A DNA stretch of 64,000 nucleotides from Amycolatopsis methanolica 239 (GTDB taxonomy: Bacteria; Actinomycetota; Actinomycetes; Mycobacteriales; Pseudonocardiaceae), in contig NZ_CP009110.1 of the NCBI RefSeq assembly GCF_000739085.1, positions 1,240,001 through 1,304,000 on the forward strand. The letters run 5' to 3'. Position 1 is the first letter of the stretch; each line of letters opens with the position of its first letter. The notes beneath the pieces are model-generated. The model had not been told where the DNA came from. It did not search any database and saw only the letters and a list, made by a program, of their open reading frames with translations. Below, piece after piece: positions 4,176 through 50,388 of this stretch. Position numbers and translations under genes: made by a program.

Positions 4176-5500
4176 TCGGCAGCAAGGTACTCAGCCGCAG
4201 GCGGCGGCCGTCGAAGGCCGCGATCGGGCTGATCTTCTTCCTGGCGGCGGCGATCGCGATCGTGTTGCTCGCCTTCAAGGCCCCGATCACGACGTTCTTC
4301 CGGCCAGGCGCGTCGATCGAGGCGGAGTTCGCTCGGAACTACCAGATGGTCGTCGACGAGACGAAGGTCAAGGTCTCGGGACTCGAGGTCGGCGTCGTGG
4401 ACGGAGTCCGTTACACCGACCACGGGACCGCCATCGTGTCGATGAAGGTGGATCGGTCCGTGTTGGACGGGCTGGGCACGGCGCCGTCCGCGGAGATCTC
4501 GCCGCTGACGGTGCTCGGTGGTCGTTACACCGTCGAACTCCAGCACGGCGGCGGCACCGGTTCGTTCGTCGGGGGGTTCATCCCGCTGAACCGGACCAAA
4601 CTGCCGGTCGAACTGGACCGGGTGCTGGAGGCACTGCCCAAGCCGACCCGTAAGAGCGTGCAGGACGACGTCGCGAACCTCGACGCGACACTGCGAAACG
4701 GGGGACCGGACGTGCGCGCGCTGGTGTCCGACCTGCCCTCGACGATGCGACCCGCCGAAGCCACCTTGCAGGGTCTTCAAGGCACCAGGCCAGATGTCGA
4801 CCTGTCCAGCCTGGTGTCCGATATGGACAACGTTGCACGGGTGATAAGCACGCACGACGGGCAACTCGCCGACATCGTGCGGGACTTGCAGGCCACTACC
4901 GGCGTTCTCGCGCAGCAGAGCAGGCCGCTGGCGCAAGGGATCGACACACTGCCGACCGCGCTGTCGACCACCCGGGATGGGCTGGCCGGGCTGGACAGCA
5001 CACTGACCCGGCTGACGCAGACCGCCAAGGACTTCCGGCCCGCGGCAGCCCAGCTCGATCCGGTGCTGCGGAAGTTGAATCCGGTACTGGTGGACGCGCA
5101 GCCGCTGCTGCGGGACCTGCGGCCGCTCGTCGACGACGCCCGCCCGGCGGTGCACGAGCTGGTCCCGGTGGCGCAGCGGGGTACGCAGATCCTGAACGAC
5201 GTCCGCGGGCCGGTCATCGACCGGGTCAAGGGCCCGATCGCGGACACGCTGATGAACACCTGGCACGGCACCGGCCCCTACGCCGGGAGCGGTGGTGGAA
5301 TGCAGGCCGACCACAAGTTCTATCAAGAGATCGGCTACATGGCGGCGAATCTCGATCGTGCGTCGTCTACGCAAGACAGTCAGGGCTCGCTTCTCGGGTT
5401 CCAGGTCGGGGTCAATCTCGGCTCGGTGCAAGGTCTTCCCTTCACCTTGCAGAACCTGTTGGCCCAGGTGGAGAGCGCAGTAGTGGGAGGTCGTCCGTGA
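4172..5500 (+). CDS. Mce family protein (fourth of six)
   Basis: 442 aa, GTG start in a GTGA overlap with the previous stop. The basic N-terminus (SRRRRPSK) and membrane segment (about residues 17-35) are followed by an MCE domain (about 45-125) with SGLEVGVVDGVRY, and a helical region to about residue 370. The C-terminal part is the least regular of the six. The next gene again starts with a GTGA overlap, so translational coupling continues. Localisation to the outer face of the cytoplasmic membrane is inferred from the anchor. Confidence 0.91.
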   Translation: MIGSKVLSRRRRPSKAAIGLIFFLAAAIAIVLLAFKAPITTFFRPGASIEAEFARNYQMVVDETKVKVSGLEVGVVDGVRYTDHGTAIVSMKVDRSVLDGLGTAPSAEISPLTVLGGRYTVELQHGGGTGSFVGGFIPLNRTKLPVELDRVLEALPKPTRKSVQDDVANLDATLRNGGPDVRALVSDLPSTMRPAEATLQGLQGTRPDVDLSSLVSDMDNVARVISTHDGQLADIVRDLQATTGVLAQQSRPLAQGIDTLPTALSTTRDGLAGLDSTLTRLTQTAKDFRPAAAQLDPVLRKLNPVLVDAQPLLRDLRPLVDDARPAVHELVPVAQRGTQILNDVRGPVIDRVKGPIADTLMNTWHGTGPYAGSGGGMQADHKFYQEIGYMAANLDRASSTQDSQGSLLGFQVGVNLGSVQGLPFTLQNLLAQVESAVVGGRP

Positions 5501-6759
5501 CAGCAGTGGCAAGAATCCGCCGGACCTGGGAGCGCGTCCGCAATGTGCCAGGCCTCGGCCGGGACGCCGTGGCACTGGCTGTGCTGGTGGCGCTGGGCCT
5601 CGCCTGCACCGGATACATCTTCTCGCAGTACGACATCAAGCCGCCGTGGCAGAGCGGCCGGGTGGTGTTCGCCGCCGAGTTCGAGAAGACGCCGGGCGTC
5701 CGGCCGGAGAGTCGGAACGAGGTGCGGATCGCCGGGGTCACCGTGGGGAAGATCGAGTCGGCCGAGCCGCTGCCGAACGGCAATGCGCGACTGGTTATGT
5801 CGCTCGACCCGGGGCACACCGTGTATTCCAACGCGAAGGCGGTGCTGAGCACCAAGGCGCCGTTGAACGTGATGTTCGTTTCGCTCGATCCTGGTGGCCC
5901 TCCGGGTACGCCGCTGCCTGCCAACGGCACAATTCCGGTGTCCCAGACCAAGCGCGTCATCCAGCCCTCCGAGCTGCTGTCCAAATTAGACGAGCGCACG
6001 CGGGACGCGTTGCAGACGCTGCTCGATGAGGCGGACACGGCGCTGGCGAACGCACCCGCGCAGCTGCCGGACGGTCTGCGGGCCACCGACGCGACGGTGA
6101 ACGCGTTCCGCCCCGTCGTCGAGCAACTGCAGACCCGGCGGGGAACGATCAGCAAGCTGGTCACCTCGCTGTCGCAGATTTCCACCGCCGCGGGCCACGA
6201 CGACGGCCGGCTGGCGGATCTGGTCGCGTCACTGCAGCAGACGCTGTCCGTACTGTCGCAACGGGACACTGAGTTGAGCGGCACGCTCGGCCAGATTCCG
6301 GGCTTCAGCGACGACCTGACGCACGCGATGGGCAGCGTGCGCGACCTGACGGGCGAGCTCAATCCGACGCTCGACGGGCTGCGGTCGGCATCCACCACAC
6401 TGCCGCCCGCGCTGTCCAGGGTCACCGGCATGGTCGATCGTGCGGGCCCGCTCGTAGCGGCGGCGAAGCCGGTGGTCAGCGAAGCGAAACCGGTGGTGGC
6501 CGACCTGCGGCCGCTCGCCGGTGACGTGCACACGGCGTTCCGTCAGCTCGCCCCCGTCACGGGTTATCTGCCCTCGGCGACCGCGCGCATCGTGCCGTGG
6601 ATGGGCGACCTCGCAGCCTTCGTGTACCAGACCTCGTCCGCGTTCAGCTTGGCCGACGCCAACGGCGGCCTCGGCAGGGCCAACCTCACGCTGTCGCTGG
6701 ACAACCCGACGGGCGGTCTCGGCCCGGCCGACGGCGGGCCTGTCGGAGGTGGGAAGTGA
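5497..6759 (+). CDS. Mce family protein (fifth of six)
   Basis: 420 aa, GTG start overlapping the previous stop. The membrane anchor lies at about residues 28-48 (AVLVALGLACTGYIF), later than in its paralogues because of a longer cytoplasmic N-terminus. The MCE domain (about 55-135) includes RIAGVTVGKIESAEPL. The rest is helical with repeated Asp-Leu-Arg-Pro-Leu elements typical of the Mce tail. LACTG within the anchor resembles a lipobox, but the long N-terminus makes processing uncertain. Position five is where the lipoprotein sits in mycobacterial mce operons. Confidence 0.9.
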   Translation: MTAVARIRRTWERVRNVPGLGRDAVALAVLVALGLACTGYIFSQYDIKPPWQSGRVVFAAEFEKTPGVRPESRNEVRIAGVTVGKIESAEPLPNGNARLVMSLDPGHTVYSNAKAVLSTKAPLNVMFVSLDPGGPPGTPLPANGTIPVSQTKRVIQPSELLSKLDERTRDALQTLLDEADTALANAPAQLPDGLRATDATVNAFRPVVEQLQTRRGTISKLVTSLSQISTAAGHDDGRLADLVASLQQTLSVLSQRDTELSGTLGQIPGFSDDLTHAMGSVRDLTGELNPTLDGLRSASTTLPPALSRVTGMVDRAGPLVAAAKPVVSEAKPVVADLRPLAGDVHTAFRQLAPVTGYLPSATARIVPWMGDLAAFVYQTSSAFSLADANGGLGRANLTLSLDNPTGGLGPADGGPVGGGK

Positions 6760-8054
6760 AGCTCACAATGCGCCCGCGCAGATACGGCAGGCTGCTGACG
6801 ATCGTCGGGTTGTCCCTGGCGTTCGTCGCTGGGTTCCTCTACTTCTGGACCGCGTCCGGCGGCACGGTGCCGGGGTTCACCCAAGACGGCTACCGTGTCT
6901 CGTTCGACAGCGCTGACACGAAGAACCTGCAGGAGCAGAGCGAAGTCACGATGGCGGGGGTCAAGATCGGCCAAGTTGTCGCGGAGGACCTCTCCGCAGG
7001 TGGCCGCCGGGTGGTGCTGAGCCTTACCGACGCGGCGCCGCTGCACCAAGGGGTGACCGTCCGGATCGGCGTCAAGTCGGTGATCGGGCAGTCCTATGTG
7101 GATGTAGTGGACGGGCAAGGGCCGCCGCTCGCGGAGGGCGCCGCGCTGCCACCGTCGGCGGTCATCCCCGCCGTCGACGTCGACGAGGTGATCAGCACCT
7201 TCGACCCGCAGACGCGAGCCGCCCTGAGCCAGAGCGTTCAATCGCTCGGCGCCGCGACAAAAGGTACCGCCGAGAGCACGTCCCAGCTGCTGTCGGGTCT
7301 CGGCGATCTCGGCCGCAACGGCTACACGGCGCTCGACGCGATCGCCGCGCAGTCGGCCGACCTGACGGCGCTGACCCGCGAAGCGGGACAGCTATTGGAC
7401 ACATTGGATACTGGTCGTGGGCGGATCGTATCCGTGGTCGACGACGCACACACGCTCGCCACGGCGACCGCCGGTCAGCGCAACGCGATCGAGTCGACGA
7501 TGCGCCAGCTGCCGTCGTTGCTGACCGCTGCGAACTCCGCCACGGGCAAGCTCGGCGAGCTTTCCGTTGCGCTGCAACCGGTCACGACCGACCTCCGCGC
7601 CAGTGCACCAGACCTGAACCGGGCGCTGCTGCAGCTCCCGGCGACGACGAACGACCTGCGCGGCCTGCTGCCCGCGCTGAATGGCACGCTCGATGACGCG
7701 CCCGCGACGCTGCACCGGGTTCCGGCGGTCGGCGCCGACGTACGAGGGCTGCTGCCCACCGCCGACACGGCCCTGCGCGACCTGAACCCGGCCTTGTCCT
7801 ATCTGGCGCCCTACGGCCGGGACGTGGGCGCAATGTTCGCGAGCTTCGGCGCGTCCATGGACCTGGTCACCGAGAACGGCATCCGGCCGATCCGGCTGGG
7901 CACCGTGTTCGATTCGGGCACGCTGCGGAACTATCCGGTGCCGCTGACGCTGGATCCGACGCACTGGAACAACGCGTACCCGGCGCCCGGCAAGGCCGGC
8001 GACCCGGCCCCGTACACGGGCACCTATCCCCAGGTGCAACGGGAACCGCGATGA
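6756..8054 (+). CDS. Mce family protein (sixth of six)
   Basis: 432 aa when started at the GTG that overlaps the previous stop (GTGA). The frame is open further upstream, but this start matches the spacing used throughout the operon and gives a normal Mce N-terminus; an ATG four codons later is the alternative. Membrane segment about residues 15-33, MCE domain about 40-120 (MAGVKIGQVVAEDL), helical stalk to about 370. The TGA overlaps the ATG of the transporter gene that follows. This completes the six-protein set expected of an actinobacterial Mce complex. Confidence 0.9.
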   Translation: MKLTMRPRRYGRLLTIVGLSLAFVAGFLYFWTASGGTVPGFTQDGYRVSFDSADTKNLQEQSEVTMAGVKIGQVVAEDLSAGGRRVVLSLTDAAPLHQGVTVRIGVKSVIGQSYVDVVDGQGPPLAEGAALPPSAVIPAVDVDEVISTFDPQTRAALSQSVQSLGAATKGTAESTSQLLSGLGDLGRNGYTALDAIAAQSADLTALTREAGQLLDTLDTGRGRIVSVVDDAHTLATATAGQRNAIESTMRQLPSLLTAANSATGKLGELSVALQPVTTDLRASAPDLNRALLQLPATTNDLRGLLPALNGTLDDAPATLHRVPAVGADVRGLLPTADTALRDLNPALSYLAPYGRDVGAMFASFGASMDLVTENGIRPIRLGTVFDSGTLRNYPVPLTLDPTHWNNAYPAPGKAGDPAPYTGTYPQVQREPR

Positions 8055-10372
8055 TCCGCGTACTTCGGCGGCTGGCGGGCGCCCTGCGCCGATGGTGGCG
8101 GGGCATCTCCCGGCGCGGGCTCGTAGCCGGTGCTGTGCTGCTCGCGCTGGCCGCGTGCACCGGCGGCGGGCTGTGGCAGGTGCGGATCGACACCGGCATC
8201 GAGTCGTTCCTGCCCACCGGGGATCCCGCCTACCAAGCGCTGCAGGACAAGGCGCGCTCCTTCGGCGGCGATCCCGTGGTGGTACTGCTCCGGTCGAAGG
8301 ACCCGAACGATCTCCTGATGCAGCAGGAGAAACTGGCCGGGTTGCTAGGGCTGGAGGGCCAGCTGGCGAAGCTGCCGGACGTGGCCGCCGTATACGGGCC
8401 GGCCACGGTGCTGAACCAGATCGCGGGCGCCGCGCAGGACGTGCTCGCGCAGATCAGCGGCCGGCGCGACGCGCTGCGCAACACTGCTGAGCAGCAGGCG
8501 CGGGCCAACGGCGCGCGTGACGCCGACGTGAGAGCGGCCGGGGACGCGGCGGTGGCCCAGTTCGACGCCCGCTACGGCCCGCTGATCGTGCGGGGCCTGC
8601 CTACGGGCCTGCCCACATTGCGCAATCCGCGTTTCGTGGCCACGGCGATGTTTCAGGACGACGGCAGGCCCCGGCCCGAATGGCGGTTCGTGGTGCCGGA
8701 CGATCACACGGCCACGCTGCTGATCCGGCCCCGCGAAGACATCGACCAGGCAGCGACGGGTCGGCTCGTCGACTCGGTGCGGTCGTCGGTCGATCACGCT
8801 GGGCTGGGCGCCGCGCAGGTCACCGTCACCGGGGTGCCGGCGGTGACCTCGGCGCTCACCGAGCGCGCCCGGCAGGAATTCCCCGTACTGGGCGCGATCG
8901 CGCTCACCACTGTGGGGTTGATCTTCTTGTTGGTGCCGTGGACCCGGCGGCGATGGACCCGGCTCCGCCCGCTGCTCGCCGCGATGTGCGGCACCGCGAT
9001 CACCGTCGCCCTGTTCGGGTGGCTGCACCGGCCACTTTCGCTGGGTGTGGTCGCGTTTCTGCCCATCCTGCTGGGAATCGGCAGCGACTTTCCCTATTAC
9101 CTGTTCCAGCGTGACCAGCTGCGGCGAGTACTCGTCGCAGCGCTCGCCGCGGCGCTGGGCTTCGCCTCGCTCGTTCTGTCGCCGCTCCCGTTCGTCGGCG
9201 AACTCGGACTGGCACTCGGGATCGGGATCGTCGCGACGGTCGGCGTCGCCCTGTTCCTGCGCCGGATGTTCGGGGTCGAAGAGGCCCAGCCGACGAGCGG
9301 TGGCCGACCGCTGCCGCGGGGCACGCGACGCTGGCGTATCGCGGTCGCGGTCGTCGCGATCGCGCTCGCCGGGCTGGGGTGGACAGCGCTACCTCGGTTG
9401 GGAATCGAGGCCGACCCGCAACAGTTGGCCAAGGGACTCACCGAACTCACCGACGCGCAGCGCGCCGAGCAAGTACTCGGCTCCGCCGGTGAGGTCAGCA
9501 TCATGGTGCGCGGCAAGGACGTCAGCAGCCCGCAGGTCCTCCAATGGGCCCGTCAGGCCGAGGAGAGCCTCGTCCGCGGTTACGGGCGCGACCTGCATCC
9601 GATCATCACGATCGACGACCTGCTCCAGTTCCTCGGCGACAACCCCACGGCCGAGCAGATCGACGCGGCGAAGCAGCTGATGCCCGCCTACCTCACCTCC
9701 GCTGTCCTCCGGCAGGACGACACCGCCGGCGTGCTGGTGTTCGGAGTGGACCTGCGCGATCTCTACCAGCAGCGGGACCTGTTGGCACATGTCCAGGCCA
9801 GCCTGCCAGCACCGCCCGCCGGTTACCACGCCGAGTTGGTCGGCCTTCCGGTCGCCGCCGTGCGCGGCCTCGATCTCGTGTCCGGCGGACGCATCCTGAT
9901 AAACATCGTCAGCGTTCTCGTTGCCGGGCTGGTGCTCACGATCGGCTTGGGCCGTCGCGACGCGTTGCGTGGCGTGCTGACGGTTCTGCTCGCCTCCGGG
10001 TGGGTGCTCGCCTTGGCGTGGACGGTGATCGGCTCGCTGAGCCCGCTCACCGTCGCGATCGGGTCGCTCACCACGGCAACCGGCTGCGAGTTCGCGGTCA
10101 TGATGGCCAAGCCGGGCCACGGCGGGCGGCGGTGGTTGTTCCGGGGCGTCGGCACCACCGCGCTGGCCGGGTCGGTCGGATATCTCGTTCTCGCGTGTTC
10201 CGGCCTCGCGGTGCTTTCCCAATTCGGGCTGCTGCTCGCGTCGGGCGTGGTGTGCTCCTACGTGGCCGCGCTGCTGGTCGTTTGGCTTGTGCCGCCGCAT
10301 GCCGCTCAACCGGCGGCCGTCCCCGCCGAACCCGAAGTACCGGCATTGGCAGGAAAGGAATCGGTGTCATGA
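8051..10372 (+). CDS. MMPL/RND-superfamily transporter
   Basis: 773 aa. About 12 hydrophobic segments fit the RND plan: one near residue 25, then an extracytoplasmic domain (about 45-270), a block of five or six helices (about 275-410), a second soluble domain (about 450-600) and a terminal helix block. The first exported domain begins with the characteristic IDTGIESFLPTGDPAY. MMPL proteins move lipids or lipoglycans across the membrane using proton motive force. The start overlaps the last mce stop and the stop overlaps the foldase start, so it is probably a working partner of this Mce system. The family is clear; substrate and direction are not. Confidence 0.88.
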   Translation: MIRVLRRLAGALRRWWRGISRRGLVAGAVLLALAACTGGGLWQVRIDTGIESFLPTGDPAYQALQDKARSFGGDPVVVLLRSKDPNDLLMQQEKLAGLLGLEGQLAKLPDVAAVYGPATVLNQIAGAAQDVLAQISGRRDALRNTAEQQARANGARDADVRAAGDAAVAQFDARYGPLIVRGLPTGLPTLRNPRFVATAMFQDDGRPRPEWRFVVPDDHTATLLIRPREDIDQAATGRLVDSVRSSVDHAGLGAAQVTVTGVPAVTSALTERARQEFPVLGAIALTTVGLIFLLVPWTRRRWTRLRPLLAAMCGTAITVALFGWLHRPLSLGVVAFLPILLGIGSDFPYYLFQRDQLRRVLVAALAAALGFASLVLSPLPFVGELGLALGIGIVATVGVALFLRRMFGVEEAQPTSGGRPLPRGTRRWRIAVAVVAIALAGLGWTALPRLGIEADPQQLAKGLTELTDAQRAEQVLGSAGEVSIMVRGKDVSSPQVLQWARQAEESLVRGYGRDLHPIITIDDLLQFLGDNPTAEQIDAAKQLMPAYLTSAVLRQDDTAGVLVFGVDLRDLYQQRDLLAHVQASLPAPPAGYHAELVGLPVAAVRGLDLVSGGRILINIVSVLVAGLVLTIGLGRRDALRGVLTVLLASGWVLALAWTVIGSLSPLTVAIGSLTTATGCEFAVMMAKPGHGGRRWLFRGVGTTALAGSVGYLVLACSGLAVLSQFGLLLASGVVCSYVAALLVVWLVPPHAAQPAAVPAEPEVPALAGKESVS

Positions 10373-16718: not shown

Positions 16719-17795
16719 GTGACCACTTTGGACAGCAGGGCGCTCAACCGGGCGACGTTGGCTCGCCAGTTGCTCCTCGAGCGGGCCGATCTGCCCGTCG
16801 TGGAGGCGGTGTCGCACCTGTGCGGGTTGCAGGCCCAGGAGCCGCAGGAACCGTTCGTCGGGTTGTGGTCGCGGCTTCGGGGCTTCCAGCCGGCCGCGCT
16901 TGACGAGCTGCTGACCGGCAGGCGAGTCGTGCGCACGCACCTCATGCGCCGCACCATTCACCTCGTCACGGCGGGCGACGTCCTGGCCTGGCGGAGCCGC
17001 CACGACGCGATGCTGCGCCAGCGGGTGCTCGGCGTCTACCGCCGCGAGCTGGACGGCGTGGATCCCGGCGGGGTGGCCGCGGCGGCGCGGGCGGAGCTGG
17101 CCCGTGACGAGCCGCGCACGATGGCCGACATCGGGCGGGCGCTCGCCGGGCGCTGGCCGTCCGCGGGGCCACGGCCGCTGGGCGAACTCGCGATCGCGGC
17201 GCTCGTGCCGACGGTGCAGGTGCCGCCGCGGGGGCTGTGGCGCGCCAAGGCCGGCGTCCGCAACGCCCGGCTGTCCTCCTGGCTGGGATGCGACGTCGAC
17301 CCGCTCCCCGAGGACGGCGCCGACCCCATCGGGCAGGCGCTCACGCGCCGCTACCTGGCCGCCTTCGGCCCGGCCACCGGGGCCGACCTGCGGGCCTGGA
17401 GCGGCCTCGCCGGCCTGCCCGCCGCGGTGGCCGCCATCCGCGACGAACTGGTCGCCTTCCGCGACGAACACGGCCGCGAACTCCTCGACCTGCCCGACGC
17501 GCCGCGACCCGACCCCGGCACACTCGCCCCGGTCCGGTTCCTGCCCGCGTTCGACAACGCCATCCTCGGCTACCAGGACCGCAGCCGGATCATCGACGAC
17601 GCCCACCGCAACCTGTCCGTGGCCGGCGAGCGCGTCGTGCTGGTCGACGGCCGAGTCGCCGCCACCTGGACCGTCGGAGCGGACACTGTGACCATCACAC
17701 CGCTGCGCCGCTTCACCCGCGCCGAGCGGACCGCCGTCGACGAGGAGGCCCGGCACCTCACCGCGTTCCTCACCGACGCAGTCCGAACTTCCTGA
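16719..17795 (+). CDS. Winged-helix DNA-binding protein of the AlkZ-like family
   Basis: 358 aa, GTG start with GGGAG about 10 bases upstream. The N-terminus carries LCGLQAQEPQEPFVGLWSRL, which is the QxQ-type region of the AlkZ-like winged-helix family (Pfam HTH_42), and the whole length matches that fold. Some members are DNA glycosylases that unhook interstrand crosslinks (AlkZ, YcaQ) and protect antibiotic producers; most actinobacterial copies are untested. No partner gene is visible. Its intact state contrasts with the decayed genes on its left. Confidence 0.85.
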   Translation: MTTLDSRALNRATLARQLLLERADLPVVEAVSHLCGLQAQEPQEPFVGLWSRLRGFQPAALDELLTGRRVVRTHLMRRTIHLVTAGDVLAWRSRHDAMLRQRVLGVYRRELDGVDPGGVAAAARAELARDEPRTMADIGRALAGRWPSAGPRPLGELAIAALVPTVQVPPRGLWRAKAGVRNARLSSWLGCDVDPLPEDGADPIGQALTRRYLAAFGPATGADLRAWSGLAGLPAAVAAIRDELVAFRDEHGRELLDLPDAPRPDPGTLAPVRFLPAFDNAILGYQDRSRIIDDAHRNLSVAGERVVLVDGRVAATWTVGADTVTITPLRRFTRAERTAVDEEARHLTAFLTDAVRTS

Positions 17796-21910: not shown

Positions 21911-22360
21911 ATGCGTGCATCGGTGCTCCTTCCCGTACTGGCGATCGCGTTCGTGCCGGCCACCGCTGCGGCACAAGAGATTCCAACGTTCGACGGCCGC
22001 GACTGCCCGCAGGACAGTCTGTGCCTGTACCGGGACCACGGCTTCACCGGCGGCGGTCTGGCCCTGCGACCGGGTGACCGGATCGACGACCTCGCCACCC
22101 ACGACCTCGCCGACCGGATCTCGTCCTGGACCAACGACACCGGCGTCACCAACGTCCAAGGTCGGGGTGAAGATCACTTCCCGGACCGCCGCCCCGGCCC
22201 GGCCCGCATGCGGCCCGCGGTGGGCCTCTGCCCGGACACCGGCCGCGGACGGCTGTCCTACGAGCGCGCGGAGTACCTGTTCAAACAGGCGACGCGCGCG
22301 CTGGCCCCCGCCGGGCGCGGCTTCACGCTGCGGCAGCTGTGGTCGGGGCGGGGCGTGTAG
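21911..22360 (+). pseudogene. I36-type peptidase inhibitor N-terminus joined to tyrosine recombinase C-terminal remnant
   Basis: A signal peptide (RASVLLPVLAIAFVPATAAA) leads into half of a peptidase inhibitor family I36 domain: CPQDSLCLYRDHGFTGGGLA and SSWTNDTG. At about 22160 the sequence changes to PDRRPGPARMRP, LCPDTGRGRLSYERAEYLFK and GFTLRQL, which resembles the region just before the HxLRH box of actinobacterial tyrosine recombinases. The recombinase part breaks off before its catalytic Arg/His/Tyr. The 149-codon frame is therefore a chance fusion of two truncated genes, not a working inhibitor. Confidence 0.6.
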
Positions 22361-22475: not shown

Positions 22476-23486
22476 TCAGGTCAAGGCCAGCAGCCGCAGC
22501 CACTCCCGATCCGCGCCCTCCGCCGTGAGCAGCGCGGCCAGCACTCCGGTGGCTCCGGTGAGCAGGCTGAGGTCCACCATCGCGAGCACCTCGGGCAACC
22601 GTGCGTGCAGGAACCGGAGCAGGCGGTCCCGCAGGACGCCGCCGACGGGGGCGCGCCCCGCGAAGGCGTCGGCGATCAGCAGGACCCCCGCGGCGCCGTG
22701 GCAGAGGCTCAGCGGGTTGTCGTTCAGGTGCACCTCCTCGTCGTACGCCGCGCACAACGTGTCCATCGCCCGCAGGCCGGCTTCCGCGAACAAGCCGCCC
22801 GCCGTCCACAGTGCCCACGCGATCCCGGGCGTGCCGTAGCACCACGCCTGCCGCCGCACCACCGCACGCCGCGCGCCGTCCGGGCGGGAGCGCCACGACA
22901 CGACGCCCAGCTCGTCCGTCTCCTGGTGCTCGACCAGCCACGACGCCAGATCCGGCGACCCGCCCGGCCCCAGCGCGGCCAGCGGGCCCGCCACCCCGTG
23001 CGCCAGCCCGGTGACGACCCCACCCCGCGCCCACGCCGGCGCGGCCCCGCCGATGCGGAAACCCTCGGGCACAGCCAGCGCGGCCAGGTGCTCTCGCGCC
23101 GCCTGCGCTCCGGGCAGCACCGCCAGCAAGCCGGCCGGCCCGGAAACCAGGTCGTAATCGGCGAACCCGACCTCGCGCGACCGCCAGCGGCCGTCCGCCG
23201 CCAGCCGCGCCGCAGCCCGGTCGGCCAGCGGCCCCAGCGCGGGATCGACCCGCGCGGCCAGGCGCAGTCCGGCCAGGACCCCGGCGAACCCGCCGTGCAG
23301 GCCGGCGCCCGAGCAGCGCGGGATCGCCCGCAACCAGGCCCGCAGCGCCGCCCGGCTCGCCGGGTGGTCGCCGAGCAGCGCGGCGAGCACGGCCGCCCCG
23401 GTATCGGGCGCGGCCGTGCTCGCTTCCTGCTGCTCGGTCCAGGTCGTGAGGACCGTGGCGGCGGCACCGGTCAGCTCCCGCGCCAT
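22476..23486 (-). CDS. LanC-type lanthionine cyclase
   Basis: 336 aa from ATG 23486. LanC proteins fold as an alpha/alpha barrel and bind one zinc with Cys-Cys-His, activating peptide cysteines for addition to dehydrated residues. All three ligands are visible: AWCYGTPG supplies the first Cys and LCHGAAG the second Cys with the His. It is shorter than many LanC proteins (about 400 aa) but includes both motifs and repeated GxxG-type inner helices (GLHGGFAG, GLAHGVAG). It starts 10 bases after the precursor stop and is the last gene of the reverse lanthipeptide operon. Confidence 0.9.
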   Translation of the reverse strand: MARELTGAAATVLTTWTEQQEASTAAPDTGAAVLAALLGDHPASRAALRAWLRAIPRCSGAGLHGGFAGVLAGLRLAARVDPALGPLADRAAARLAADGRWRSREVGFADYDLVSGPAGLLAVLPGAQAAREHLAALAVPEGFRIGGAAPAWARGGVVTGLAHGVAGPLAALGPGGSPDLASWLVEHQETDELGVVSWRSRPDGARRAVVRRQAWCYGTPGIAWALWTAGGLFAEAGLRAMDTLCAAYDEEVHLNDNPLSLCHGAAGVLLIADAFAGRAPVGGVLRDRLLRFLHARLPEVLAMVDLSLLTGATGVLAALLTAEGADREWLRLLALT

Positions 23487-23496
23487 CCCGAACGGG

Positions 23497-23655
23497 TCAG
23501 CACACGAACCAGCTCGACTCTTCGTCACCGCAATACCCGCTGCACAGCAGCAGGGAGGGCGGCTTACCGGTTTCCGGGTCTCCGGAACTGCTGATCCGCG
23601 CGTCCAGACGCTCGACCAGACCGTCCAGTTCGGACAGCTCCAGCGTGGCCTCCAT
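23497..23655 (-). CDS. Class I lanthipeptide precursor peptide (LanA)
   Basis: 52 aa from ATG 23655, with AAGGAG eight bases upstream. The leader is acidic and amphipathic (MEATLELSELDGLVERLDAR), with LSELD in the place where FNLD-type recognition motifs sit in other class I leaders. The core is Ser/Cys-rich: SLLLCSGYCGDEESSWFVC, with Cys at positions 38, 42 and 52 and Ser at 34, 39, 47 and 48. Between them is a flexible GDPETGKPP. Up to three rings are possible; a free or AviCys-type C-terminal Cys is conceivable, but no LanD is seen here. Cleavage site unknown. It lies between the LanB and LanC genes, the expected setting. Confidence 0.8.
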   Translation of the reverse strand: MEATLELSELDGLVERLDARISSSGDPETGKPPSLLLCSGYCGDEESSWFVC

Positions 23656-23680
23656 GATGAACTCCTTCCGTTGGTTTCCT

Positions 23681-26041
23681 CTACCCACCGACTGCGGTGG
23701 TCTCGGGGGCGCGCCGCGCGCGCCGGGTGGTGATCCGCTGCCAGGCGGCGGTCACGTCGTCGGCCAGCCGGGACGGCGACGCGCCCAGCAGCAGCCGCAC
23801 CACGGCCTGCACCGCCCGCCGGGATCCATCCACATCGGACACCGTCAGGTCGTCGGGGGCGGGCAGCATCTCCTCCAGCACCAGGCCGCCGACCGCGGGA
23901 TCGGCCAGCATCCGGTCGAACACCCGCAGCGTGGCGATGCTGTCCAGGTCGACCGGCTGGGACCGGCGGCCGTCCCGGGCGAACACCCACCGCGGCGCGC
24001 CGGTCACCAGCCGCAGGTTCGCCAGCGCTCGCATCCGCGCGAACCGGTCGCCCCCCGGCTCCGGCAGCACGTCCCGGCCCGCGAACACCGTCGCCGGGGC
24101 GAGCACCAGGTCCGGGTCGGCCAGCAGGCGCGGCGTGCGGGCGCGGCCGGGGAAGGCGGCGCGCGGATCGCCGAATCCGTGCGACACCGCGAGCCGGCGG
24201 GCCGGGGACGCGGCGGTGAGCAGCGAAACCACCAGGTCCCACGGCGGCGGTGGCCGCCGGGTCGCGTGGTAGACCGGCCACAGCACCTGGCCCGCGCGGT
24301 CCTCGGCGATCACCCCGCGCGCGTCGCGGCGCAGCGTGATCTCGTCCAGCGGCAGGTAACGGCGCATCCCGGCCGGATCGTCCACATAGGTCGCCGGGTC
24401 GGCGTCGCCGGTCCAGGTCCGCGTGTAACGCGGGCGGCGGACGGTGTTGGCGCCCTGGCTGCCTTGCGGCGGCACGAGGACCTCGACGAGCTCCGCGCCG
24501 CACCGGGCCGCGGTCTCGGTCAGGAACGCGCGGTGCGCGCTGACCTGCGGGACCTCGCCGTGCAGGCTCTGCAGCGCGGCGGCGAACCGCGCGTCCGTCA
24601 CGCCCGCCGGGGTGACGGCCTCCAGCACGGCCCGGCCTCCGGGCAGCGGGCGGAGCAGGCAGTCGACCGGCCACGGCGAGGGCCGCGCGGGCGGTGCGCC
24701 GAGGTAGTCCAGCACCGCCGGGCCGAGTTCGATCTCGCTTTCGTCGGCATGCCGGGCCATCCACTCGCACAGCCGCTGGTAGATGGTTCGCGGCCGCGGT
24801 TCCGGCCACGCCGATCCGGGCAGGGCGGGCCGGGGCGGCTCGCCGGAGTCGAGGGCCTCCGCGACGATCGCGGACAGCGGCCGCGGCTCGGGGCCGACGA
24901 GGTCGAGCGCGGGGTGCGCCCGGCGGTCGGCGATCACCGCGGCGAGCCGTCCCGTGTGGTCGACCAGCTCGGGCAGCCGCGACGGCACCGGCACGCCGCC
25001 GTGCGCGCGCCGGTAGACGTCGGTGAACCCGGAGCCGGGCTCCGCGGCGACCCGCCAGCGGTGCAGCAGCCCGGCCGGCGCAGACGACACCTGCACGAGC
25101 CCCAGCTGCGCCAGGTGCCGCAGGAACTCGCGCAGCACCGGCTTGCGCCGCACGTCCGGCGCGAGCAGCGTGACGACGTCCCGGGTGCGCATCGCCCGCG
25201 CGCCGAGCACCCGGCACAGCGCGTCCACCACCGGCGTGCGCCTGATGTCGCCGCGGCGCACCGCGTCCGGCCCGTCGTGGTCGGCGACGTGCCAGCACAG
25301 CCGGTCGCCCTCCGTCCACCGCAGCGCCGTCAGGCTCAGCCACGCGTCCGGCAGGACCGGGGCCGCGGTCAGCCTGCGGCGGTCCTCCTGGATGTTGGTC
25401 AGCCGGTGCACCGCGTGGTCGCCGACCGTCAGCGGCCCCGGGCCGGTCCCGGCGAGGGCGACGTGCGCGAGCCAGCCGCGCGGGGTGCTCTTGAACGCGG
25501 CCCGGAACAGCAGCCGCAGCAGGTGGTCGGCGCGTTTGCGCAGTGCCTTGCCGGTCCACGGCTCACCCGCGGCGAGCCGGGCGCGGATGTCCTCGACGAC
25601 GCCGGGCGCGGTGGCGGCGACCATGCGGGCCGCTTCGGGGTCGCCGCTGATCAGGTCCCACACCAGGCCGTGGTGCATCCGCGCGGTCTGCTCGACCGCG
25701 TCGTGCAGCGCCGCGGTCTCGGCGGTCAGCGCGTCGCCCCATTCGGCGATCCGCGCCAACGGCCGGAAATCCAGGTCCCCGGGCTGGACGAACTCGCCGC
25801 GGTGCAGACGGCGCCGGACGTCGAGCGCCTGCCACCGCAGGTCGCGCGGCAGGGCCGGGACCAGCTCCACACCGATGCGCTCGGCCACGTCCGCGGCGCA
25901 CGCGCGGTAGGCGGTCTCGGCGCGGATCAGGTGCCGCATCCGTTCGGTCAAATCGGGCGTGCCGAGCGCGGCGGGCAGCGCCGCGGGCAGGCCCGCGACC
26001 CGCACCAGCACGGAATCGCCGGCCAGGGCTGGATCAGTCAT
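23681..26041 (-). CDS. LanB glutamylation domain protein (lanthipeptide dehydratase, N-terminal part)
   Basis: 786 aa, ATG start. The whole protein corresponds to the Lant_dehydr_N domain, which attaches glutamate from glutamyl-tRNA to Ser/Thr of the precursor. Visible markers include LLRLLFRAAFKSTPRGW, a run common to LanB proteins, and a Thr/Arg-rich region near RPRYTRTWTGDADP. The elimination half is absent and is supplied by the preceding gene, so this is a split LanB. It overlaps that gene by eight bases and lies 25 bp before the precursor gene. Confidence 0.9.
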   Translation of the reverse strand: MTDPALAGDSVLVRVAGLPAALPAALGTPDLTERMRHLIRAETAYRACAADVAERIGVELVPALPRDLRWQALDVRRRLHRGEFVQPGDLDFRPLARIAEWGDALTAETAALHDAVEQTARMHHGLVWDLISGDPEAARMVAATAPGVVEDIRARLAAGEPWTGKALRKRADHLLRLLFRAAFKSTPRGWLAHVALAGTGPGPLTVGDHAVHRLTNIQEDRRRLTAAPVLPDAWLSLTALRWTEGDRLCWHVADHDGPDAVRRGDIRRTPVVDALCRVLGARAMRTRDVVTLLAPDVRRKPVLREFLRHLAQLGLVQVSSAPAGLLHRWRVAAEPGSGFTDVYRRAHGGVPVPSRLPELVDHTGRLAAVIADRRAHPALDLVGPEPRPLSAIVAEALDSGEPPRPALPGSAWPEPRPRTIYQRLCEWMARHADESEIELGPAVLDYLGAPPARPSPWPVDCLLRPLPGGRAVLEAVTPAGVTDARFAAALQSLHGEVPQVSAHRAFLTETAARCGAELVEVLVPPQGSQGANTVRRPRYTRTWTGDADPATYVDDPAGMRRYLPLDEITLRRDARGVIAEDRAGQVLWPVYHATRRPPPPWDLVVSLLTAASPARRLAVSHGFGDPRAAFPGRARTPRLLADPDLVLAPATVFAGRDVLPEPGGDRFARMRALANLRLVTGAPRWVFARDGRRSQPVDLDSIATLRVFDRMLADPAVGGLVLEEMLPAPDDLTVSDVDGSRRAVQAVVRLLLGASPSRLADDVTAAWQRITTRRARRAPETTAVGG

Positions 26042-26957
26042 CGTCGGCCGCCAGCGACTCGGCGATCAGGACCTGCTTGCCGAAGCTCAGCTTCCCGCGG
26101 TTCCAGTGGAACACCACGTAGTAGCAGGCCGCCTCGCGTGGGCCGACCCGCGCGCCGTCCGCGGTGAAGTAGTGGGACCACCACCCGTCGAGCAGCGGCC
26201 GGATCTCCTCGGCGTGCCGCTCGGCCAGCCGCCGGGCGGGCCCGGGCACGGTGGCGGCCAGCTCGTCCGGGTGGTTCCACCACCGGCGCAGGCCGGCGGC
26301 GGCGCCGGCGGTGTCGACCGGCTCGGGGTGCCGCCGCCCGGTCTCGCGGACCCGCGCCCACACGTCCCGGTCCTCCCAGCCCGCGATCCGCAGCCCGTCG
26401 AAGACGCCGCGCAGCATCAGCATTGACAGCGCCCACGACGGGCAGCCGGACGGGCGGGTGTGGTGGTCGAGCCAGGTCAGCGAATCCACGGTGAACAGCC
26501 GGTGCGCCCACGCCATCGACGCGGGACCGCCGAACAGGTGCGCCTCCGGCTCGTACACCGACGGCACCGCCCTGGTCACCAGTCCGATGTTCTGCCACAG
26601 CCGGATCCGCTCGCGCAGCAACGCTTCCACGTGCTCGGCCTGTCCGGGCGCGGGAGCCAGGCGCAGGCGCAGACCGGGTGGCTTGTGCATCACGAAGAAG
26701 TCGTCGATCGTCTGCTGCCACAACCAGTCCCGGGCCAGCGCGGCGATCGCGCCGTGCAGTTCCGGCAGATCCGGCGTTTCCAGGCCCCACTGCACCCACC
26801 GGTCCTCCTCGGCCGCGAGCGCGGCCGCGCCCGCGGTGAGGAACGTGGTGAGCTCGCGGCTGGTCCGCCCCTCGGACAGCGCGCTGACGCAGTCGGCGAG
26901 GAAATCCCGCATGGGCACGGAATTCTCCCGCAGGCGCACGGTCGCAGGCATCGTCAT
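26034..26957 (-). CDS. SpaB_C/thiopeptide-type elimination domain protein (split LanB C-terminal part)
   Basis: 307 aa, ATG with GGGAGG upstream. The FFVMHKPPGLRLRL segment and YEPEAHLFGG are hallmarks of the thiopeptide-type bacteriocin biosynthesis (SpaB_C) domain, which removes glutamate to leave dehydroalanine or dehydrobutyrine. It is the first gene of the reverse operon and overlaps the LanB gene (ATGACTGA), so the two halves are co-translated. Split LanBs are known from thiopeptides and some actinobacterial class I lanthipeptides. The 220-bp spacer upstream probably holds the operon promoter. Confidence 0.9.
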   Translation of the reverse strand: MTMPATVRLRENSVPMRDFLADCVSALSEGRTSRELTTFLTAGAAALAAEEDRWVQWGLETPDLPELHGAIAALARDWLWQQTIDDFFVMHKPPGLRLRLAPAPGQAEHVEALLRERIRLWQNIGLVTRAVPSVYEPEAHLFGGPASMAWAHRLFTVDSLTWLDHHTRPSGCPSWALSMLMLRGVFDGLRIAGWEDRDVWARVRETGRRHPEPVDTAGAAAGLRRWWNHPDELAATVPGPARRLAERHAEEIRPLLDGWWSHYFTADGARVGPREAACYYVVFHWNRGKLSFGKQVLIAESLAADDD

Positions 26958-41959: not shown

Positions 41960-42748
41960 TCAGACCAACGGCTCGGCGCGGGCGGTCCAGCGGCCTTCGG
42001 TGCGGGTGATGCGCACGGGGTGGTCGAAGCATTTGCTGATGTGGTCGGTGGTCACGACGTCGTCCGCCGTCCCGGACGCCAGGCATTGGCCTTCGCGCAG
42101 CAAGAGCGCGTGGGTGGTGCTCGCGGGCAGCTCCTCCAGGTGGTGGGTGACCAGCACGGTCGCCAGCTCCGGGTGGTCCCGCCGCAGAGCGTCCACACTG
42201 GACAGCAGTTGCTCGCGGGCGGCGACGTCCAGGCCGGTCGCCGGTTCGTCGAGCAGCAGCAGGCGCGGCGACGGCATCAGGGCGCGGGCGATCAGCGCCC
42301 GGCCGCGCTCGCCCTGGGACAGGGTCGGCCAGCGGGCGTCGCGTTGTCCGGCGAGGCCCAGCATCCGGATCAGGCGCTCGGCGCGTTCCCGCTCCGCCGC
42401 GGCCGGCTGCCAGCGCGGCACCAGTTCGGTCGTGTTCGTGAGCCCGGTCAGGACCACCTCGAACACCGACAGCGGCGACGTCAGCGGGTGCCGCGGGTTG
42501 ATGTGCCCGAGGAACGACCGCAGCTTGCGCATGTCGACCCGGCCCAGCCGGTGCCCGAGCACGTCGACCGTCCCGCGCGTCGGGTGGGTGAGCGCCCCCA
42601 GCAGCCCGAGCAGCGTGCTCTTGCCGGCGCCGTTCGCGCCGAGCAGCGCCCAGTGCTCGCCCTCGCGCACGGTCAGCGAGATCGACCGGAGCAGGTACCG
42701 GCCGTCGCGGACGAGATCCACATCGCTCACCTGCAGCACGGGGGTCAT
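41960..42748 (-). CDS. ABC transporter ATP-binding protein
   Basis: 262 aa from ATG 42748; a GTG three bases upstream is also possible. Walker A GANGAGKST, the signature LSQGERGRALIARALM (LSQGE), Walker B LLLLDEPATGLD and the switch His (VTHHLEELP) are all intact. The closest pattern is of single-ORF ATPases of the molybdate or iron type, but no permease or binding protein is adjacent, so it may act as an orphan or a translation-related ABC protein. Its start faces the LysR gene at 42809. Confidence 0.87.
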   Translation of the reverse strand: MTPVLQVSDVDLVRDGRYLLRSISLTVREGEHWALLGANGAGKSTLLGLLGALTHPTRGTVDVLGHRLGRVDMRKLRSFLGHINPRHPLTSPLSVFEVVLTGLTNTTELVPRWQPAAAERERAERLIRMLGLAGQRDARWPTLSQGERGRALIARALMPSPRLLLLDEPATGLDVAAREQLLSSVDALRRDHPELATVLVTHHLEELPASTTHALLLREGQCLASGTADDVVTTDHISKCFDHPVRITRTEGRWTARAEPLV

Positions 42749-42808
42749 CACCGCACCGTATCAAGTCCTCAGACGTCTGATGAAACGGACATCCGATAAC
42801 CTCCCGGA

Positions 42809-49056: not shown

Positions 49057-50388
49057 ATGCCCCGCAGCGAGAACCGCTCGATCGCGAAGGTGGTCGGCGC
49101 GAGCCTCATCGGCACCACGATCGAGTGGTACGACTTCTTCCTCTACGGATCGGCCGCGGCCCTGGTCTTCAACAAGCTCTTCTTCCCCGGCAGCGATCCG
49201 CTGACCGGGACCCTGCTCTCGTTCGCCACCTACGCCATCGGCTTCCTCGCCCGGCCGCTCGGCGGCCTGGTGTTCGGCCACTTCGGCGACCGCGTCGGCC
49301 GCAAGAAGCTGCTGGTGTTCAGCCTGCTGCTGATGGGCGGCTCGACCTGCGCGATGGGCCTGCTGCCGACCTACGCGACGGTCGGCGTGGCAGCGCCGCT
49401 GCTGCTCACGGCGCTGCGGCTGGTGCAGGGCTTCGCGCTCGGCGGCGAGTGGGGCGGCGCGGTGCTCATCGTGTCCGAGCACGGTGACGACCGCCGCCGC
49501 GGGTTCTGGGCCTCCTGGCCGCAGTGCGGCGCGCCGGGCGGGAACCTGCTGGCCACCGCGGTGCTCGCGATCCTCGCCGCGGTGCAGTCCGACGCCGCGT
49601 TCACCGCGTGGGGCTGGCGCATCCCGTTCCTGCTCTCCGGCGTGCTGGTGATCATCGGCTTGTGGATCCGGCTCACCGTCACCGAGTCGCCGGTGTTCCT
49701 GGCCGCGCAGGAGAAGGCCCGTCAGCGCGGCGAGCAGCACCGCGCCCCGGCGGTGGAGGTCTTCCGCGGCGCGTGGCGCCGGGTGCTCATCACGATCGGC
49801 GCCCGCATGGCCGAGAACGTGTCCTACTACGTGCTGACCGCGTTCATCCTGGTCTACGTCACCGGCCCGCTGGGGCTCAGCAAGTCGGCCGGGCTCAACG
49901 CCGTGCTCATCGGGTCGGCGATCCACTTCGTGACGATCCCGCTGTGGGGCGCGCTGTCCGACCGGATCGGCCGCCGCCCGGTGTACCTGTTCGGCGCGGT
50001 CGCCATGGCCGGCTGGGCGTTCGTGTTCTTCGCTCTGATGGACACCCGCTCGTCCGGGATGATCATCCTCGCCGCGACCATCGGCCTGGTGCTGCACGGC
50101 GCGATGTACGGTCCGCAGGCGGCGTTCTTCGCCGAGCAGTTCCCGACCCGCGTCCGCTACACCGGTCTGTCGATCGGCGGGCAGCTGTCCTCGATCGCCG
50201 CCGGCGCGCTGGCGCCGATCGTCGCGGTCGCGTTGTTCAAGGAGTTCGGCGGCACGCTGGCGGTTTCGCTGTACGTGGTGGTGATGTGCGTGCTCACGGT
50301 GATCGCGGTGACCAGCGCGAAGGAGACCGCGGGCAGCTCGCTGCACGACGAGCAGCCCACGACCGCCCCGCAACCGGCGACGCGATGA
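49057..50388 (+). CDS. MFS transporter, metabolite:H+ symporter (MHS) type
   Basis: 443 aa with 12 hydrophobic helices. ASLIGTTIEWYDFFLYGSAA and GHFGDRVGRKKLLVFSLLLM are the hallmarks of the MHS branch, which imports carboxylates such as shikimate, citrate or 3-hydroxybutyrate-like acids using protons. AAAGGAG lies just before the ATG. It is positioned between the dehydrogenase and a GAF-PucR regulator with short gaps (34 and 4 bp), so it probably imports the dehydrogenase substrate. Confidence 0.9.
   Translation: MPRSENRSIAKVVGASLIGTTIEWYDFFLYGSAAALVFNKLFFPGSDPLTGTLLSFATYAIGFLARPLGGLVFGHFGDRVGRKKLLVFSLLLMGGSTCAMGLLPTYATVGVAAPLLLTALRLVQGFALGGEWGGAVLIVSEHGDDRRRGFWASWPQCGAPGGNLLATAVLAILAAVQSDAAFTAWGWRIPFLLSGVLVIIGLWIRLTVTESPVFLAAQEKARQRGEQHRAPAVEVFRGAWRRVLITIGARMAENVSYYVLTAFILVYVTGPLGLSKSAGLNAVLIGSAIHFVTIPLWGALSDRIGRRPVYLFGAVAMAGWAFVFFALMDTRSSGMIILAATIGLVLHGAMYGPQAAFFAEQFPTRVRYTGLSIGGQLSSIAAGALAPIVAVALFKEFGGTLAVSLYVVVMCVLTVIAVTSAKETAGSSLHDEQPTTAPQPATR

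Follow-up and report, generated by a model that had tools for sequence, protein, structure and literature searches.

The four genes described here very probably make up a full set of biosynthetic genes for a small, SapT-type (spt) class I lanthipeptide, encoded in Amycolatopsis methanolica 239 within a stretch of 64,000 nucleotides (the window, positions 1,240,001-1,304,000 of the 7.24 Mb chromosome). Gene order, homology, active-site residues, conservation and selection were observed, and the predicted product is best read as a tri-lanthionine peptide. What is new is the core, SLLLC-SxxC-..SW..C without threonine, found in a Pseudonocardiaceae branch; its first two predicted rings are spaced like A and B of nisin, and TP(G/S) is lacking.

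All four genes lie on the minus strand in the order lyase, LanB, precursor and LanC, and all four reading frames are intact. A stand-alone, SptBb-like SpaB_C protein, the putative lyase for glutamate elimination (26034..26957, 307 aa), overlaps by 8 bases with the SptBa-like LanB glutamylation protein (23681..26041, 786 aa). After a gap of 25 bases follows the 52-aa precursor peptide (23497..23655, three cysteines, leader motif ELSELDGLVERLD, core region SLLLCSGYCGDEESSWFVC) with AAGGAG directly 5′ of its ATG, and 10 bases further on the LanC cyclase (22476..23486, 336 aa from its ATG). The original prediction of a compact split-LanB class I lanthipeptide locus was supported: the four genes lie where it had placed them, and the coordinates and core it gave are correct. 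A scan for promoters and terminators found nothing. Downstream of LanC, window positions 21912-22360 match two sites about 4.9 kb apart in genomes G015 and G017, as if a deletion in the window's strain had fused two genes; by eye, the G015 segment missing from the window holds sigma-factor-like and other unrelated ORFs and no lost cluster genes. An AlkZ-like gene (16719-17795) was rejected as a second flank marker, being close to the operon in G015 and G017 alone. A second LanB/LanC locus in the window's genome, G000, at about 542.6-544.2 kb (L135, 10617-14930), appears fragmented by eye.

The lyase scores 80.2 bits against TIGR03891 (cut-off 48.45) and matches PF14028 over the curated cut-off (E 2.8e-14); the elimination domain of a class I LanB is present, on a separate protein. 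Placed on PDB 9g04 and 5ehk by the family profile, Lys92 aligns with Tyr and Leu141 with Arg, and Arg97 and Arg99 are kept. According to the accessible parts of PMC9011353 and PMC9486935, a Lys where NisB has Tyr and a Leu where it has Arg826 characterise the syn-type glutamyl lyases, SptBb among them. Both marks of the SapT type are found here (K92, L141), and together with R97 and R99 they make up the predicted syn-type active site. The wider family was followed in 68 lyase rows, namely the window and 67 loci, with same-genome loci and loci without a lyase match left out: Lys92 is present in 60, Leu141 in 63 and both in 56, the window among these. Rows off the pattern are L034 (internal deletion), L066, L119, five loci in which Lys92 is lost (L047-L050 and L052), and L042-L045, with Lys or Arg at 141. 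The last four lyases (L042, L043, L044 and L045; Arg in three, Lys in one) keep Lys92 and have a mixed active site. His284 is present in 65 of the 68 rows, and is probably not the catalytic His, judging from the NisB motif; the catalytic His of NisB has no placed counterpart because the PDB matches end before it.

The LanB protein is barely above the cut-off of PF04738 (29.8 bits against 28), and a 28-row LanB profile matches PDB 6ec7, TbtB of a thiopeptide, at E 3.3e-16; by these two matches the glutamylation domain of a class I LanB is present. LanC matches PF05147 at 51.9 bits and has NisC-like stretches. Its residues D110/D112, H163, R212, C216, C262 and H263 are invariant in all 13 aligned LanC proteins, and the zinc ligands and catalytic residues of a class I cyclase are in place, with NisC aligned in part. 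The operon has the arrangement of the SapT type, with glutamylation and elimination on separate proteins beside a LanC.

A search with LanB of 390 genomes of the window's family gave matches at E 0.001 in 38 of them, some of these partial, and a search of a named genome collection gave 63 loci. Around the family-set matches we fetched 35 loci, of which several share one genome and many are closely related. Lyase, LanB and LanC are all present in 21 of the 35, and LanC was not detected in the other 14, one of which (L035) is cut by a contig end. By eye, a Cys-bearing precursor-like ORF follows LanB in every one of the 21 complete loci and in just one of the 14 without detected LanC (L043), and a leader with a Ser/Thr-Cys core is conserved in all 21. 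The original prediction had named the lack of such an ORF beside LanBC in relatives as what would count against it, and this is not what the complete loci show. The LanB of Amycolatopsis tucumanensis is 95% identical to that of the window. In a 41-row LanB tree, which is midpoint-rooted and does not show which clade came first, Amycolatopsis, L040, Actinokineospora, Actinophytocola, Saccharothrix and Kutzneria form one clade (100/100), separate from a Streptomyces clade with SapT-like precursors; Streptoalloteichus, Longimycelium, Kibdelosporangium and a Pseudonocardia bin are placed opposite them in the tree.

Among the window's 287 short ORFs, 8 (with the precursor counted in) have at least three Cys and at least three Ser/Thr in their last 20 residues, so composition alone proves little and was discarded as stand-alone evidence. 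The leader is more telling. A motif ELxELDxL(I/V)xxLD is common to most of the relatives' precursors, including those of Streptomyces, and the LSELD that had been regarded as unusual proved to be the motif of the split-LanB family, found also in Streptomyces precursors with SapT-like cores; the likeness to the SapT type is therefore by way of Streptomyces relatives and not of SptA's own leader. The leader pattern gave 19 matches on both strands of the window and the 35 loci, every one of them in the stretch that follows LanB, a test that is partly circular because the pattern was written after the precursors had been seen. Five of the 21 complete loci have precursors that it does not match (L045, L060, L061, L062 and L066). 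Precursor dN/dS values are not very low, at 0.16-0.33 on 1-4 changes and 0.39-0.46 against G007.

The core string SLLLCSGYC...SWFVC is shared by the window and G015, and A. tucumanensis (G017) has the same core with DASWFVC. The fourth Amycolatopsis core (G007) reads SLLLCSGDC...SWHWC, followed by SLLLCSYGC..SWYHCW in L040, SLLLCSGGC..SWHWYC in L041 and SLLLCSFGC..SWYWHC in L044. Among these close-branch cores, the first two Ser-Cys pairs have constant spacing, the third pair spans 5 or 6 residues, and there is no threonine. From this spacing and the co-conservation of Ser and Cys, we predict the rings S34-C38, S39-C42 and S48-C52, which together span 19 residues, S34 to C52. The core has one more serine, Ser47, which is replaced by Ala in A. 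tucumanensis; although not conserved, it could be where ring C starts. Thr29 lies upstream of the predicted rings, so a leader cut before it would leave a threonine in the core. The charged residues of the core region are D, E and E, with no basic residue. Other members of the clade differ: L042 has four Cys and a Thr, the cores of L043 and L045 seem degenerate, and Kutzneria has DSAIC[ST]L[VI]GC-like cores. That the core is unlike known lanthipeptides held up, in that its strings are absent from the papers searched; most subscription papers and supplements lay beyond that search, and a mining table may already list the cluster.

The chemical steps, ring map, cleavage and export of the product are inferred by homology with SapT. 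The leader motif would recruit the enzymes, and LanB would transfer glutamate from Glu-tRNA onto the serines of the core as an ester. Removal of this glutamate by the separate lyase, probably using Lys92 as in SptBb, would give dehydroalanine, and LanC would add the three cysteines to form the predicted rings. The calculated monoisotopic [M+H]+ of the 52-aa peptide with its start Met is 5591.58 unmodified, 5537.55 after three dehydrations and 5519.54 after four; for S34-C52 it is 2097.86 unmodified and 2043.83 with three dehydrations. An unlinked protease would cut off the leader, and an unlinked exporter would release the peptide.

The Pfam scans of 44 predicted window proteins, for which gene calls were mechanical and several proteins had no match at all, found no protease and no LanD-like flavoprotein. 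The original prediction that transporter, protease and LanD are missing nearby stands for the last two; transport-like genes do exist, at least 12 kb from the operon (MMPL, 8051-10372; ABC ATPase, 41960-42751; MFS, 49057-50388). The missing protease is no anomaly, being normal for the SapT type, as the spt cluster has none either in the accessible text of PMC9011353. Neighbour clustering of 897 predicted proteins from 57 loci gave three groups present in most loci, LanB, LanC and lyase (53, 51 and 46), and a linked transporter or protease was rejected as a family trait, the next-largest clusters reaching 9 of 57 loci.

ABC genes follow LanC in some relatives. L041 has an ATPase (6195-7043, by Pfam match) and a permease (5278-6198, below the Pfam cut-off), and L044 has a similar permease-looking ORF without a Pfam match. 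The L041 permease has unlinked homologues in G007, G015 and G017, none in the window's genome, and further ones in three genomes without the operon (G003, G005 and G011); by this distribution, it is not the general exporter of the window's branch. Tandem ABC genes come directly after LanC in L088, L092, L104 and L127 (Pfam on L088, blastp on the rest), and these loci with L087 make up a Nonomuraea/Jidongwangia/S. silaceus branch with ABC transporter genes near the operon; the L088 and L092 cores end in CTGSCPC(TA). A deoxyxylulose-phosphate-synthase-like gene adjoins the operon in four loci (L041 12387-15875, L042 11779-13638, L043 12283-14313 and L044 11907-16298; Pfam on L041, blastp on the rest). 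L041 also has a polyprenyl synthase, with a similar-looking ORF in L044, and L044 has a terpene synthase.

As to function, SapT is reported to be a biosurfactant with a surface-active or morphogenetic role in aerial growth, and its addition to SapB-deficient S. coelicolor is a reported assay. By analogy, the window product may act at surfaces or in morphogenesis during aerial growth, a tentative assignment that we nevertheless consider the likeliest, ahead of lipid II binding. The transfer is weakened because the core is acidic (D, E, E, no basic residue) and not of the hydrophobic, Thr-rich SapT kind. Unlikely, but next in line, is an antibacterial lantibiotic in which a five-residue ring A (S-LLL-C) and the directly adjacent four-residue ring B (S-GY-C) would enclose the lipid II pyrophosphate in a nisin-like cage. 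The pattern SxxxC[ST]xxC reproduces rings A and B of nisin in size and in adjacency; it occurs in the window, three more Amycolatopsis, L040, Actinokineospora (L041), Actinophytocola (L044) and one Streptoalloteichus core (L057). The Streptomyces cores L121 and L123 also fit this loose pattern, through extra serines, so ring spacing alone is weak evidence. The motif behind it is SxxxCTP(G/S)C for rings A and B of nisin and gallidermin (accessible part of PMC7268733); SLLLCSGYC has its spacing and lacks TP(G/S). The acidic core region also speaks against a lipid II binder, as does the finding that no immunity genes adjoin the operon in the window Pfam scans, which likewise gave none of the linked immunity and export genes of a nisin-type binder. 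The literature searched held no paper joining class I lanthipeptide, Amycolatopsis and lipid II.

A more specific proposal, which we regard as improbable, is that SapT machinery independently gave rise to a bicycle that binds lipid II as nisin does, with syn-type lyases acting on all-serine cores. Since the stereochemical signature of the lyase cannot show on such cores, the L042-L045 lyases would have been free to regain Arg or Lys at 141 with Lys92 kept. If true, this would tie ring spacing, threonine loss and a relaxed lyase active site together within one clade. Against it, the L042-L045 sub-branch is weakly supported in the LanB tree (80/66), the L042 core has Thr and four Cys, and degenerate-looking cores occur in L043 and L045.

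Loss of operon parts is common in Amycolatopsis. The locus adjoins an enoyl-CoA-hydratase-like gene in 9 of 19 genomes; the operon is complete in four of these nine (G000, G007, G015 and G017), and LanB alone is intact in the other five (G006, G014, G016, G018 and G008). G006 has an in-frame internal deletion in the lyase and fused remnants of precursor and LanC, G016 keeps a lyase remnant, and G008, G018 and G014 have LanB only, the G014 contig ending 356 bases after it. The product is therefore dispensable. The same five loci could suggest that the operon is a relic whose product is no longer made, a reading to which we give very little weight: the four frames in the window are intact, and in pairs of G000, G015 and G017 dN/dS is 0.18-0.20 for LanB, 0.20-0.34 for the lyase and 0.32-0.35 for LanC, against 0.145-0.29 for the adjoining hydratase-like gene. 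In all five reduced loci the LanB frame is open, with dN/dS of 0.34 (G006-G014) and 0.45 (G008-G018) against 0.16 and 0.17 for the hydratase-like neighbour. Neutral simulation of the G008-G018 LanB left no stop in 11% or 45% of runs, depending on the assumed base bias, so this open frame may have been retained by chance. Replacement by class III enzymes was considered and set aside as a lead only: LanKC-like genes, picked out by eye in 19 genomes from roughly 290 bits upwards, occur in none of the four complete-operon genomes and in 7 of the 15 others (p 0.13, not significant), the counts are not independent of phylogeny, and the family also matches 12 of 14 control genomes.

A different kind of reduction is seen in five Kutzneria genomes (L047, L048, L049, L050 and L052), in which lyase and LanB are kept and LanC and precursor were not found, in a neighbourhood that resembles the complete K. 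viridogrisea operon (L046). Lys92 of the lyase is Gly in four and lost in L050. Their LanB dN/dS is 0.09-0.15 in all ten pairs, below the 0.19-0.29 seen among four paralogous loci that are complete; for L051, a sixth and more distant Kutzneria bin, the value is 0.35-0.40. All five genomes carry, in addition, a paralogous locus that encodes lyase, LanB and LanC. A 48-codon ORF after the orphan LanB was rejected as coding by eye, its conservation being in blocks.

Another LanB-dependent product, such as a thiopeptide, a merely dehydrated peptide or an amino acid added to a scaffold peptide, is brought to mind by the thiopeptide name of TIGR03891 and by LanB aligning best with the LanB-domain protein 6ec7, and seems most improbable, as the operon LanC has a full active site and goes together with the precursor, which is present in 21 of 21 complete loci and in 1 of the 14 without detected LanC, and the window scans gave one elimination protein only, with no YcaO or other azole-forming enzyme and no second SpaB_C-like protein for cycloaddition.

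The SapT-type lanthipeptide reading extends this type to a branch of the Pseudonocardiaceae whose predicted rings differ. Because the natural substrate of this syn-type lyase would offer serine alone for elimination, the lyase chemistry could be studied separately from MeLan stereochemistry. The predicted product is also a small candidate peptide that shares the ring spacing of nisin and could be produced in E. coli as published for SapT, with the Thermobispora bispora GluRS/tRNA-Glu pair.

Among known systems with a split LanB, pinensins are produced by Bacteroidetes. Their glutamylation and elimination lie on separate proteins, as in the window (PMC7268733, accessible part). The CoiSA(ED) lyase of S. 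coelicolor shares the syn-type active-site marks of the window lyase; it forms a fusion with a methyltransferase and accompanies a full-length LanB, whereas the window lyase stands alone (PMC9011353 and PMC9486935, as far as accessible). Nisin and gallidermin resemble the window in having SxxxC followed directly by a four-residue ring, and differ in that the window has no TP(G/S) in ring B, Ser for Thr, a split LanB and no linked immunity genes seen. The closest system is SapT, whose spt cluster (SptA, SptBa, SptBb and SptC) comes from Streptomyces lavenduligriseus Tu901; in the parts of PMC9011353 at hand, SptA is turned into the ring peptide by SptBa, SptBb and SptC in E. coli, giving three MeLan and one Lan. 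Common to SapT and the window are the split LanB with a separate lyase, LanC, the lyase Lys and Leu and the lack of a cluster protease, and the leader motif is that of Streptomyces precursors with SapT-like cores, a comparison made through relatives and not with the Spt proteins themselves. These Streptomyces cores are threonine-rich, and that of S. eurythermus (L089), YTQGCSGLCTIVICATVVICG, has three Thr-Cys pairs and one Ser-Cys pair, which fits the three MeLan and one Lan of SapT when compared with its stated rings rather than its sequence (PMC9011353, accessible part). In contrast, the window core has three predicted rings and belongs to a separate LanB clade (100/100); having no Thr in its core region, it is expected to yield no MeLan, and with three Cys in place of four rings its product is not SapT itself but a predicted all-serine relative of it.
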